NCBI RefSeq assembly: GCF_003337555.1
Contig: NZ_QPJK01000005.1
Coordinates: forward strand, 372,001 to 436,000
Length of the DNA: 64,000 nt
Direction: 5' to 3'
Source: Pseudorhodoferax soli
GTDB taxonomy: Bacteria > Pseudomonadota > Gammaproteobacteria > Burkholderiales > Burkholderiaceae_C
The notes below the pieces were generated by a model. It was not told where the DNA came from. It saw nothing but the letters and a program-made list of their open reading frames with translations, and made no database searches. The first letter of the stretch is position 1. Each line of letters opens with the position of its first letter. Made by a program: the position numbers and the translations under genes. Shown piece by piece: positions 59,762 through 64,000 of the stretch.

Positions 59762-60729
59762 TCAACCTTCAGGCCGGTGGCCGCGACGACCTTCTTCCAC
59801 TTCGCCTCCTCGTCGGCGATCTGGCGGCCGAACGCGTCGGGGCTGTTGGCCACCGGCGCGGCGCCCATGTCGGCCAGCCGCTGCACCGAGGCGGGCCGAC
59901 GCAGCAGCTCAGCCACGGCCTGCTGCAACTGCTCGACAATCGGCCGCGGCGTGCCGGCCGGCGCCAGCATGCCGAACCATGCGCTGGCCTCGTAGCCAGG
60001 CACGGTTTCGGCCACGGTCGGAATATCGGGCGTGCCGGGCCAGCGCTGCGCCGTGGTGACGGCCAGCGCGCGGATGCGGCCGGACTGGATGTGCGCCATC
60101 GACGAGGGCAGGTTGTCCACCCCCACCGGGATCTGGCCGCCGATCAGGTCGGTCAGCATCGGGCCGCCGCCCTTGTACGGGATGTGCACCATGTCCACGC
60201 CGGCCATCACCTTGAGCAGCTCCACCGCCATGTGCGGCGATCCGCCCGCGCTGGTGGAGCCGAAGCTCAGCTTGCCGGGCTGCGCCCGCGCCATGGCCAA
60301 CAGCTCCGACAGCGTCCTGACGGGCAGGGCCGCGTTGACGGTGATGACGTTGGGCGTGCTGGCCACGCAGGTGATGGGCGCGAAATCGGCCACCGGGTCG
60401 TAGGGCAGGGCCTTGTTCAGCGCGCTGTTGATGCCGTGCGAACTGATCGTGGCCATCACCAGTGTGTAGCCATCCGCCGGTGCCTTGGCCACGGCCAGCG
60501 AGCCGATGGCGCCGCTGGCCCCGGCCCGGTTGTCGACCGTGAAGTTCTGGCCCAGTTTTTCGCCCAGGCCGGCGGCCACCAGGCGGGCCAGCAGGTCGGT
60601 CGTGCCACCGGGTGGGTAGGGCACGACGAGGCGCACGGGCTTGTCGGGATAGCCGGCCTGGGCGAGGGCGGGCAGTGCTGTGACGGCGGCCGTGGCGGCC
60701 AGCCCTTGCAGTGCGGTGCGGCGCTTCAT
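59758..60729 (-). CDS. Bug/TctC-type receptor within the AtuA-type operon
   Basis: 323 residues. N-terminal KRRTALQGLAATAAVTALPA is a signal peptide with a basic start, followed by YPDKPVRLVVPYPPGGTTDL. DNRAGASGAIG and HIPYKGGGPMLTDLIGG are the typical ligand-loop regions. The ATG overlaps the stop of the AtuA C-terminal-like gene (ATGA). It probably supplies the operon's substrate, but no membrane components of a tripartite transporter are encoded nearby. Confidence 0.93.
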   Translation of the reverse strand: MKRRTALQGLAATAAVTALPALAQAGYPDKPVRLVVPYPPGGTTDLLARLVAAGLGEKLGQNFTVDNRAGASGAIGSLAVAKAPADGYTLVMATISSHGINSALNKALPYDPVADFAPITCVASTPNVITVNAALPVRTLSELLAMARAQPGKLSFGSTSAGGSPHMAVELLKVMAGVDMVHIPYKGGGPMLTDLIGGQIPVGVDNLPSSMAHIQSGRIRALAVTTAQRWPGTPDIPTVAETVPGYEASAWFGMLAPAGTPRPIVEQLQQAVAELLRRPASVQRLADMGAAPVANSPDAFGRQIADEEAKWKKVVAATGLKVE

Positions 60730-61088
60730 GCGGCCTTCCTCTCGGGGTGGTTGCGCAGTTGGTCCATCAGCGCCTCGGGCACGTCGATCGGAAAGCGCAG
60801 CAGCGCGGCCGACATGGCCTTGCCGTACTGGTCCAGCGCCAGGCTGCGCGAGACGCCGCCGCCCAGCGCGCCATGTGCCACGAAGTTGATGGCGTGCAGG
60901 CCGTCGACCGGGTAGCGCAGCACCTCGCCGGTGATGGCGCCCTGGTAGAAGGCCTTGAGCTTGTCGGCGGTCAGTTGCTCGACGAGCAGCGGGTACAGCG
61001 CGGGTTCGTAGGCGAACACGGCGATGTTGACGGTGTTGCCCTTGTCGCCGGAGCGGCAGTGGGCGAGGTGTTGGAGCATCACTTGCAT
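60726..61088 (-). CDS. AtuA C-terminal-like protein (ferredoxin-fold, stand-alone)
   Basis: 120 residues with the run LAHCRSGDKGNTVNIAVFAY, which is the hallmark of the small domain fused to, or encoded beside, AtuA/DUF1446 proteins. An alternative ATG three codons further on (61079) is possible. In many genomes it follows atuA directly. Here the two are separated by the 753-bp repeat region, so the pair is split but still in order and on the same strand. Confidence 0.88.
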   Translation of the reverse strand: MQVMLQHLAHCRSGDKGNTVNIAVFAYEPALYPLLVEQLTADKLKAFYQGAITGEVLRYPVDGLHAINFVAHGALGGGVSRSLALDQYGKAMSAALLRFPIDVPEALMDQLRNHPERKAA

Positions 61089-61132
61089 GTTGAGGTCCCG
61101 TGGTGTTGTATTGCGCGCAGCGCAAACGGTGG

Positions 61133-61435
61133 CGCGGCCGAGCGAAGCGATGGCCCGTATGTGACCCCGCTCCCACCCCTGTGCCCACGCCGAGGAGCGC
61201 AGTGGCCTGGGCGGCGCGGGGAACCTCGCGCTTCGTGAACTGACTCATTGCACTTGTCCGAGCTGAACGAACGCAGTGAGTGGTGCGAGTTGTGCAATGC
61301 GCCCAGGCCGCGAGCACCGCAGGTTGCCCGGAGCGCTAGCGGAGGGACGTGGGCACCGGGGCCGCCTTCTTTTGCTTCCTTTTCTTGGCGGAGCAAGAAA
61401 AGGGAGTCGCCGTGCGGGGGCGAATACCCCGCCTC
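61133..61435 (+). repeat. Structured repeat element, copy A
   Basis: Non-coding copy of a roughly 300-bp element. Helices seen directly: P1 GGCCTGGGCG (61204-61213) with CGCCCAGGCC (61300-61309). P3 GCGCGGGGAACCTCGCGC (61214-61231), a hairpin that starts directly after P1. P2 CATTGCAC (61246-61253) with GTGCAATG (61292-61299), which abuts P1. P4 TGCCC (61325-61329) with GGGCA (61351-61355). P5 hairpin 61378-61403 (10-bp stem, 6-nt loop). P6 GCGGGG/CCCCGC (61414-61432, 7-nt loop). P1, P2 and P3 together make a three-way junction. No protein-coding evidence. Confidence 0.8.
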
Positions 61436-61489
61436 CTCACTCTGATCGGCAGATGGTGTGCATAGAACAGACTGCTTTCGCGCAAGCAC

Positions 61490-61790
61490 CTGGAGCCGGG
61501 ATGTGCGCCCGGCAGCGCAGTCACTTTCTCTTGCTTCGCCAAGAGAAAGTAACCAAAGAGAAGGCGACCCCGGTGCCCCTGTCCCTGCGCTGGCGCTCCG
61601 GGCAACCTGCGGTGCTCGCGCCATGGGCTGCATTGCGCAACTCGCACCGTTCGCTCCGCTCACTACGCTCGGACAAGCGCAATGAGTCAGTTCACGAAGC
61701 GCGAGGTTCCCCGCGCAGCCCATGGCACTGCGCTCCTCGGCAGGGGCACAGGGGGAAGTCCCACACGGGCCATCGCTGCGCTCGGCCTGG
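61490..61790 (-). repeat. Structured repeat element, copy B (inverted)
   Basis: Read on the minus strand, this copy aligns with copy A over its full length with many substitutions, yet repeats each helix. P1 is an 11-bp pair of GCCATGGGCTG (61620-61630) and CAGCCCATGGC (61716-61726). P2 is CATTGCGC/GCGCAATG (61631-61638, 61677-61684). P5 is an 11-bp hairpin (61523-61550) with the same 6-nt loop size. P6 is GCCGGG/CCCGGC (61495-61513) with the same 7-nt loop. The paired changes relative to copy A keep base pairing. The stretch from there to 61841 adds a second imperfect GGCCGAGCG repeat. Confidence 0.8.
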
Positions 61791-61841
61791 GGCTCGGGCC
61801 TTCGCTTCGCTCGGCCGCTGGGCGTGGTGGGGGCTTTCACC

Positions 61842-63197
61842 TCAACTCTCCAGGTAGTGGATGCTGGGCTGGATCGCCTCGCGCGGCACCAGCGTGGACC
61901 ACACGCCGATCACCTCGCGTGTGCGGTCCTGGTGCGGCACGCGCTTGCCGGTGTGGGCGATGCCCGAGACGGCCATGCCGTCGACCTCGCGGCCGACCTT
62001 GAGCGCTTCCTCTTTCGTGCGCGTACGGGCCGCCACGCGCACGGCGATCTCATACGGCTCGGGCCAGTCGGCGGGCGTGGCCTTGCCGTGCACGGCGTTC
62101 ATGCCCAGGAAGTCGATGCGCAGGTCTTCGGCTTGCAGGCCGACGATGCGAAAGCGCTCTTCCAGGATGCGCTTGGCCAGCTGCGCGCGGCGCAGCGCGC
62201 CGGGGCCGGCGTAGAAGAACATGTCCTCGCCGATAAAGCCCTCGGTGCAGCCGACCGAGGCCTTGAGCGTCGGCGTGCGCGGCTTGCCGCCGATGCCACT
62301 CACGCGCACGCGGTCGGGGCCGATCTGCTCCAGCCGGGCGGTGGTGAAGTCCACCACCACATCGGGCGTGATGTAGTTGGCCGGGTCGTGCACCTCGTAC
62401 AGCAGCTGCTCCTTGACCGTGCGCAGGTCGATGGCGCCGCCCGTGCCGGCCACCTTCTCGATCACGGCGCTGCCGTCGGCCGAGACCTCGGCGATCGGGA
62501 AGCCGAAGTTCCAGGGCTCGGGCACGTCCTTGAAGCCGGGGTCGCTGAAGTAGCCGCCGGTGACCTGGGCGCCGCATTCGAGCAGATGCCCGATGCCGTT
62601 GCCGGCACCGAGGCGCGCGTGGTCGAGCGCGTCCCAGCCGAACTCGGCCATCATCGGCGCCATGAACACCGAGGGGTCGGCCACGCGGCCCGTGACCACG
62701 ATCTGCGCGCCGGCGCGCAGGGCCTCGGCGATGGGCTCGGCGCCCTGGTAGACCTCGGCCGAAATGATGCTGTCGGCCAGCGTGGACAGCGGCACGCCGG
62801 TCTCCATCACGGTGTCGGCCAGCTGGCCGATGCGCTCGGTCACGAGGCTGCCGTCCACGGCCGCGATCTTCACGCCCTTGTGGCCCATGCCGCGCAGCAG
62901 TTCGGCGATGCGCGCCGCTGCGCCGCGCGGGTTGATCCAGCCCTGGTTGGAGACGATGCGCACGCCCTGCGCGATGCAGGCCGGCAGCACGGCGCGCATG
63001 CGGTCGTCCAGGTAGGTGTCGTAGCCGGGGAACGACGGGTCGCGGCGCGCACGCACCTGGGCGGCCGAGATCGTGGCCTCGGCCATGGTCTCGAAGCACA
63101 GGTAGTCGAGCCGGCCCTGCTCGGCGTTCAGTTGCGCGGGTTCGACACGGTCGCCCCACCAGGCCGAGCCGGAACCGATGCGGATGGTCTTGGTCAT
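61842..63197 (-). CDS. AtuA/DUF1446-family protein
   Basis: 451 residues. The family is required for acyclic terpene (citronellol/geraniol) use in pseudomonads and is widespread in carboxylate-degradation operons; its reaction is not firmly known. Family strings are IRIGSGSAWWGDR at the start, DYLCFETMAEATISAAQ, VSNQGWINPRGAA and VVVTGRVADPSVFM. The ATG at 63197 overlaps the stop of the acyl-CoA ligase gene (ATGA). The protein lacks the C-terminal ferredoxin-like domain, which is encoded separately beyond the repeat. Confidence 0.92.
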   Translation of the reverse strand: MTKTIRIGSGSAWWGDRVEPAQLNAEQGRLDYLCFETMAEATISAAQVRARRDPSFPGYDTYLDDRMRAVLPACIAQGVRIVSNQGWINPRGAAARIAELLRGMGHKGVKIAAVDGSLVTERIGQLADTVMETGVPLSTLADSIISAEVYQGAEPIAEALRAGAQIVVTGRVADPSVFMAPMMAEFGWDALDHARLGAGNGIGHLLECGAQVTGGYFSDPGFKDVPEPWNFGFPIAEVSADGSAVIEKVAGTGGAIDLRTVKEQLLYEVHDPANYITPDVVVDFTTARLEQIGPDRVRVSGIGGKPRTPTLKASVGCTEGFIGEDMFFYAGPGALRRAQLAKRILEERFRIVGLQAEDLRIDFLGMNAVHGKATPADWPEPYEIAVRVAARTRTKEEALKVGREVDGMAVSGIAHTGKRVPHQDRTREVIGVWSTLVPREAIQPSIHYLES

Positions 63198-64000
63198 TCG
63201 GAATCCTTCAATTCGACGAGAGCGTCGACGATGGTGGCGCCTTCGCCGGCGGCGCTGAGCAACACCGGGTTGAGGTCGATGGAGGCGATGCGGCCCTGCG
63301 CCGCGACGATCAGCCGGCCCACCTGCACTGCGACATCGGCCAGCGCCTGCACGTCCAGCGGCGGGTCGCCGCGCGTGCCGGCCAGCAGCGGCGCGATGCG
63401 CAGCTTGCCGAGCGCAGCCACCACCTCGGCCTGGTCGAACGGCGGCACCAGCAGTGCCACGTCGCGCATGGCCTCGACGTACTTGCCGCCGTCGCCCACC
63501 GCCACGACCGGGCCGAATTGCGGGTCGATGTGCGCACCGACCATGGCCTCGTGCCGGCCCCGGCGCATGGTGGCGACCAATACGCCGTCCTGCGCGGCGC
63601 CCATGGCGGCGAGTTGGTTCCATTGCTGCGTGAAGGTGGTGGCCACGGCGTCGGCATCGTTCAGGTTCAGCGCGACCAGGCCGTGTTCGGACTTGTGCGG
63701 CACGTCGCGCGAGCACGCCTTCACGGCGACCGGGCCGCCGAGTTCGGCAAAGGCTGCGCGCGCTGCATCGGCCGTGCGGCACAGGCGGTGCTGCACCACG
63801 GGCAGGCCTTGGGCGGCCAGCAGCGCCAGGCTGTCGGCTTCGTTGAGCAGGCCGCTGGCGCCGGGCAGCGCGGGCATGGGCAGCGCCTCGGCCTGCGGCA
63901 GTGGCTCGCGCAGCATCGCCATGTGGTCGGCGATCTGCGCCAGCGCGCCCAGCGCGTCGTGTTCATTGGCATAGGTCGCCACGCCCGCGGCGCGGAAGAC
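63194..64000 (-). CDS. ADP-forming acyl-CoA ligase family protein, C-terminal part (runs off the window)
   Basis: 269 codons are in the window and the frame is open to the edge, so the N-terminal CoA-binding part lies beyond 64000. What is seen is the linker (RAAGVATYANEHDAL) and the ATP-grasp beta-subunit-like region: LLAAQGLPVVQ, VAVKACSRDVPHKSEHGLV, and IDLNPVLLS at the end. This fits the acetate-CoA ligase (ADP-forming)/acyl-CoA synthetase family, which makes acyl-CoA from acid and ATP. First visible gene of the AtuA-type operon. Confidence 0.88.
   Translation of the reverse strand, partial: VFRAAGVATYANEHDALGALAQIADHMAMLREPLPQAEALPMPALPGASGLLNEADSLALLAAQGLPVVQHRLCRTADAARAAFAELGGPVAVKACSRDVPHKSEHGLVALNLNDADAVATTFTQQWNQLAAMGAAQDGVLVATMRRGRHEAMVGAHIDPQFGPVVAVGDGGKYVEAMRDVALLVPPFDQAEVVAALGKLRIAPLLAGTRGDPPLDVQALADVAVQVGRLIVAAQGRIASIDLNPVLLSAAGEGATIVDALVELKDSE

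Follow-up and report, generated by a model that had tools for sequence, protein, structure and literature searches.

A structured inverted-pair element of Pseudorhodoferax operons, probably mobile and translationally coupled to its neighbors

Within the window, a 64,000-nucleotide stretch of the Pseudorhodoferax soli genome, two co-directional genes are separated by an insert that consists of two inverted, folded arms and is spanned by an open frame. We consider it probable that this insert is a copy of a non-autonomous mobile structured repeat, which persists in Pseudorhodoferax operons by way of translational coupling. In the mechanism that we propose, the element would insert at operon stop/start junctions in Pseudorhodoferax; a ribosome finishing the upstream gene would re-start at the element's overlapping start codon, translate some 220 to 250 codons of apparently meaningless peptide across the element, terminate at the start codon of the downstream gene, and re-start there once more. 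Such translation would also unfold the highly stable hairpin and protect against Rho-dependent polarity, and insertion need not silence the downstream gene. The element would thus persist in operons because a stop-free frame runs through it.

The copy in the window is laid out as follows (window positions).

61089 to 61840, no strand: DNA inserted relative to the empty junction of the congeners G001, G002, and G003 (contiguous flanks in three relatives, by eye)
61136 to 61430, plus strand: arm A, from its REP-like outer end to the P6 inner hairpin (profile match L001 1548-1842)
61136 to 61155, plus strand: REP-like terminal motif of arm A (motif search, C5:433136-433155)
61176 to 61361, plus strand: closing helix of arm A, 61176-61189 with 61348-61361 (inverted repeat I7; 96.5% of cells paired, helix 1)
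61375 to 61433, plus strand: P5 and P6 hairpins of arm A (inverted repeat I10 and folding; helices 6 and 7 of the covariation test), P6 being 61415-61420/61428-61433 with a 7-nt loop
61436 to 61489, no strand: spacer between the arms (sequence)
61497 to 61787, minus strand: arm B (profile match L001 2199-1909)
61768 to 61816, minus strand: end of arm B, with two REP-like motifs at 61768-61787 and 61797-61816 (motif search)
61079 to 61840, minus strand: through-reading frame of 253 codons, from GTG at 61840 to the stop at 61079 (ORF list)
61842 to 63782, minus strand: upstream gene AtuA, start uncertain (ORF list; Pfam PF07287, 2.1e-144)
60726 to 61088, minus strand: downstream gene, AtuA ferredoxin-like (ORF list; Pfam PF23544, 7.1e-29)

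Folding and distribution of the arms

An earlier note on this DNA had described an inverted pair of non-coding arms of about 300 bp, in which several helices were preserved through paired changes, and had taken selection for folding as the simplest explanation. The pair is real: the arms are 87 to 89% complementary (I1, 61176-61300 with 61630-61754, 87%; I2, 61301-61373 with 61556-61628, 89%), with the REP-like hairpins at the outer ends and the P6 hairpins at the inner ends. The description of the pair as non-coding holds only in part, since the 253-codon frame on the minus strand spans all of it. In none of the six frames does the element have gene-like codon usage. The GTG of this frame lies one base past the AtuA stop, and its own stop falls barely within the next gene.

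Singly, the arms fold well (z scores of −2.8 and −4.9), and the whole insert forms one very long hairpin (−564 kcal/mol, z score of −30). In an alignment of 23 diverse arms with 56 consensus pairs (A1), changes on both sides were seen at 37 of these pairs. The number of cells changed on both sides was 228, compared to 68.6 ± 7.4 in shuffled alignments (0 of 500 shuffles reached 228) and 19 to 45 when the structure was slid along the alignment, and 95.7% of the cells pair, compared to 78.2% in shuffles. A held-out set of 43 arms from 32 other loci, with N-bearing or incomplete arms excluded and the structure predicted anew, gave 454 both-sided cells against a shuffled mean of 152.7 and a maximum of 175 in 200 shuffles. 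Both sets thus bear out the paired changes of the earlier note and support selection on the folding of the arm. The P2, P5, and P6 helices, with the loop of P6, are as that note described them; of its three-way junction, P1 and P2/P3 are present, and the consensus turns out to be a larger, multi-branched arm made of the closing helix, P1, P2/P3, P5, and P6.

A covariance model built from the 23 arms (R1) matched both arms of the window copy (arm A at C5:433176-433432, arm B at C5:433495-433754). The own genome (8.16 Mb in 30 contigs) holds 27 R1 matches, each of them part of an inverted pair or located at the end of a contig. All six genomes sampled from the genus, among them the own one, carry the element, and a DNA search (E ≤ 0.001) found it in 82 of the 150 genomes sampled from the family. 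At E ≤ 1e-4, R1 matched 51 genomes among the 150 of the order sample and 72 among the 274 of the class sample, the own genome being included in both; these two counts are lower bounds, because the filters were strict and few candidates were scored per genome. With arm B as the query, matches were found in 2 of the 72,556 plasmid records and in none of the 50,697 phage records, which, at that sensitivity, would make the element rare on plasmids, with none seen in phages. One of the two plasmid records with a matching fragment has it between convergent genes and the other in an 818-bp co-directional gap, according to an incomplete gene table. This structured family is common in the sampled genomes. 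It had no Rfam match, either at E ≤ 1 in window positions 60900 to 62000 or at the gathering threshold in 20 loci, and we found no published description of the element in a search that covered mainly openly accessible papers.

Eight contig ends of the own assembly fall inside the element (G000 contigs C1, C6, C7, C13, C19, C21, and C22), from which it appears that Pseudorhodoferax drafts break there, and doubled seams and N occur in the copies of relatives. An apparent variant with internal duplications (++-, +--, and ++--; nine copies) was judged to be an assembly artifact, since eight of the copies contain N and the remaining one, L046, has a doubled seam. The pattern was also seen in contigs labeled Flavobacteriales, Ochrobactrum, and Bifidobacterium (L183, L199, and L209), either by contamination or by chance. 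A second complete element (L004, G000:C5:440064-440720) lies about 4 kb past the window end and 6.9 kb from the window copy; it is likewise flanked by co-directional genes and coupled, in the sense given in the next section.

The arrangement of the arms separates Pseudorhodoferax from the other genera. In Pseudorhodoferax pairs the REP ends point outward, whereas 30 of the 32 pairs tabulated for other genera have REP ends inward and P5/P6 outward (L089 in the same table being the copy from the window). Several of the other-genus pairs consist of two arm subtypes facing each other (L062, L064, L068, L069, and L076, by eye); their gene context is mixed, as judged with a crude caller, and open frames are occasional (8 of 32 pairs are open on one strand, 5 of 32 on the opposite one). 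In the own genome, the inner part of the copies is found in both orientations, and the window copy resembles a mosaic of the kind that recombination between arms would be expected to produce (both by eye). At three other-genus loci the arms stand about 1 kb apart and enclose ORFs (L146 1032-2409, L148 1046-2593, and L149 1029-2431). Four ORFs between these arms gave no Pfam match over the cut-off and are possibly cargo. An autonomous relative was sought in 14 stretches, with ORFs listed in 8: neither the four inter-arm ORFs scanned against Pfam nor the remaining listed ORFs, inspected only by eye, revealed a transposase.

We lend about as much belief as doubt to a wider reading of these data, namely that the arms belong to a large class of interspersed elements with a conserved multi-branched fold, seemingly without a protein of their own, spread across the window's order and class, of which our searches found no description, and that one lineage, its arms turned outside-in, has become a translated operon passenger whose 750-nt hairpin has to be passed by ribosomes on their way to the next gene.

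Insertion site and the frame through the element

The junction between atuA and the AtuA ferredoxin-like gene is uninterrupted in the three congeners G001, G002, and G003. It is filled in G005, the relative with the flanks most similar to those of the own genome (97% and 93%, compared to 89 to 90%); for G004, there was no strong match to the window site among the matches listed. In G002 the empty junction reads TGA-G-ATG, and the insert 61089-61840 falls in between (by eye). Other sites (L165 to L170) show empty states or internally deleted remnants, again by eye. With many copies per genome and an orthologous site empty in three congeners, the mobile structured element suggested by the earlier note is supported, and we infer that it transposes. 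The arms themselves form terminal inverted repeats, as in a MITE. A MITE-like nature is not supported by target-site duplications, of which none was found above the level of mismatched flanks in 23 units (longest direct match with a mean of 7.5 nt for own flanks and 7.3 nt for mismatched ones). Single cases that resembled such a duplication, for example CTGACATG, which flanks L008 on either side, proved not to be general.

The first 23 complete units, which were drawn from the best matches to the window copy, all lie between genes that are co-directional by codon usage, all are near-adjacent to these genes at both junctions, and all have a stop-free frame in the operon sense, compared to 1 of 23 in the antisense. 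Relative to the upstream stop, the start codon of the frame is at −1 to +10 nt, and relative to a downstream start its stop is at −16 to +5 nt; in this analysis the start of L003 is TTG, and allowing only ATG and GTG gives a distance of −14. From 107 clusters we then kept 40 distinct copies, excluding those less than 400 nt from a locus end, exact repeats, and four loci with other organism names (L183, L190, L199, and L209). These copies occupy 22 sites, and 38 of them are co-directional with a stop-free frame in the sense direction in 34 of 38 and in the antisense in 6 of 38. Coupling at both ends was found in 32 of the 40 copies, with at least one coupled copy at 19 of the 22 sites. Among clean copies, 28 of 30 are coupled from the upstream stop codon to the downstream start codon, by limits that were set after the first 23 units and that five of the seven further clean copies pass. 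Their commonest upstream offsets are +4 (11 copies, TGANATG type) and −1 (9 copies, ATGA type); downstream, they are −4 (10 copies, TGANATG type) and +1 (9 copies, ATGA type). For comparison, 21 of the 36 neighboring gene pairs in the window are co-directional, and 6 of the 36 have a start between −4 and +10 relative to the stop, or 10 of 44 with a looser caller, the gene caller being a crude one trained on 30 to 33 window frames. It replaced an earlier caller that had given contradictory contexts at orthologous sites.

The eight copies scored as uncoupled by the script comprise six with gaps or doubled seams and the pair L174 and L182, from one clean site that precedes a LysR-like gene (named by eye); L174 is open and by eye ends in TGA-C-ATG, and L182 is broken. 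The ten non-clean copies have gaps or rearrangements; four count as coupled. Coupling is shown only in Pseudorhodoferax, because most pairs of other genera have the opposite topology and their open frames are occasional.

Comparisons between orthologous copies suggest that the openness of the frame is kept and its peptide is not, since every one of the 12 coupled-ortholog comparisons, which draw on 18 copies from 8 sites, contains indels whose lengths are not multiples of three; these comparisons took in only coupled clean copies, the clean pair L174/L182 being left out, and indels of a single base are sensitive to the choice of aligner. In 6 of the 12 the frame is shifted by the net difference in length as well, the second arm is read in differing frames among copies, and L026 lacks about 205 bp relative to its ortholog and is still coupled. 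The ortholog indels match what selection for an uninterrupted coupled frame would predict, in a test that is weakened by the choice of copies already coupled.

Alternative explanations

The same data bear on whether insertion specificity alone could produce the pattern, with an element that targets overlapping stops and starts and a frame that is open through composition and common descent, not later selection. The same junction types at both ends are consistent with this, and so are the GC-rich arms, which are stop-poor in some frames, as the open frames of other genera illustrate. However, the frame-shifting indels in every coupled-ortholog comparison, a set that holds no uncoupled copies, and the small number of open antisense frames argue for something further, and we regard this explanation as unlikely. 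It is quite unlikely, in our view, that the element is a host-beneficial operon regulator, whose long hairpin would determine how the mRNA is processed or in what ratio the two genes are expressed, with coupling as part of the device. The extreme stability of the folded insert would suit such a role, and several sites are common to two to four genomes, but three congeners lack it at the window site, and large internal losses are seen in L026 and, by eye, in L169 and L170.

That the element is a REP/BIME, a class that the earlier note had named, and is mobilized by a RAYT is very unlikely. All 34 exact occurrences of the REP-like motif GGCCGAGCGNAGCGANGGCC in the genome lie at the element (by eye; diverged copies would be missed), weak end-motif matches elsewhere have E values of 0.05 or more, and the short palindromes dispersed outside larger elements that characterize REP/BIME were not seen among the exact hits. 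The hairpin ends are nevertheless REP-like, the own genome has a single Y1_Tnp (RAYT-like) gene (L160 1132-1821), and Y1_Tnp is somewhat commoner in carriers (38 of 51 genomes) than in non-carriers (57 of 99; p = 0.05). Against this, 13 of the 51 carrier genomes have no Y1 transposase match, and no R1 match lies beside the Y1_Tnp gene of the own genome. A genuine protein-coding gene in every operon is barely credible: the frame is complete, with start and stop at coupled positions, but in the window copy it has no Pfam match, codon usage is negative in all frames, and the reading frame of the second arm varies.

Comparison with known repeats

The preferred reading, a mobile structured repeat carried through operons by coupling, can be set beside four known kinds of repeat. 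REP, BIME, and REPIN sequences have palindromic ends, pair in inverted orientation, and spread between genes, and in all of this the present element resembles them; it differs in its arms of about 200 to 300 nt, in an exact terminal motif that never stands alone, and in having no clear RAYT tie. Rickettsia palindromic elements are translated palindromic repeats that lie in frame within genes, whereas the present element, whose translation is predicted, lies between genes and has a frame of its own. The beta-proteobacterial repeat element BRE is described as a repeat that is found in Comamonadaceae and in Alcaligenaceae and shows some traits of mobile elements (PMC3110155), and in this it resembles the present one. 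It is set apart, by description and not by sequence, through its size of about 90 bp and its sometimes tandem arrangement (PMC3110155).

MIRU, as outlined in a review, is an apparently mobile repeat that inserts at start codons and has an internal frame coupled to the gene there, for which the proposed advantage is insertion with minimal impact on expression (PMC12548453). The likeness lies in this internal frame coupled to a neighboring gene, which here is coupled at both ends (28 of 30 clean copies, 32 of 40 overall). MIRU is short according to the same review (PMC12548453), whereas the element described here, found in a betaproteobacterium, measures about 650 to 750 bp and is an inverted pair of covarying, multi-helix arms. 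By analogy, and with no claim of membership by sequence, it may work like MIRU. If so, translational coupling for insertions that dwell in operons would have arisen outside mycobacteria too, and in an element several hundred bases long whose folding is under selection; matched filled and empty operons would offer a means to measure how far such coupling reaches.
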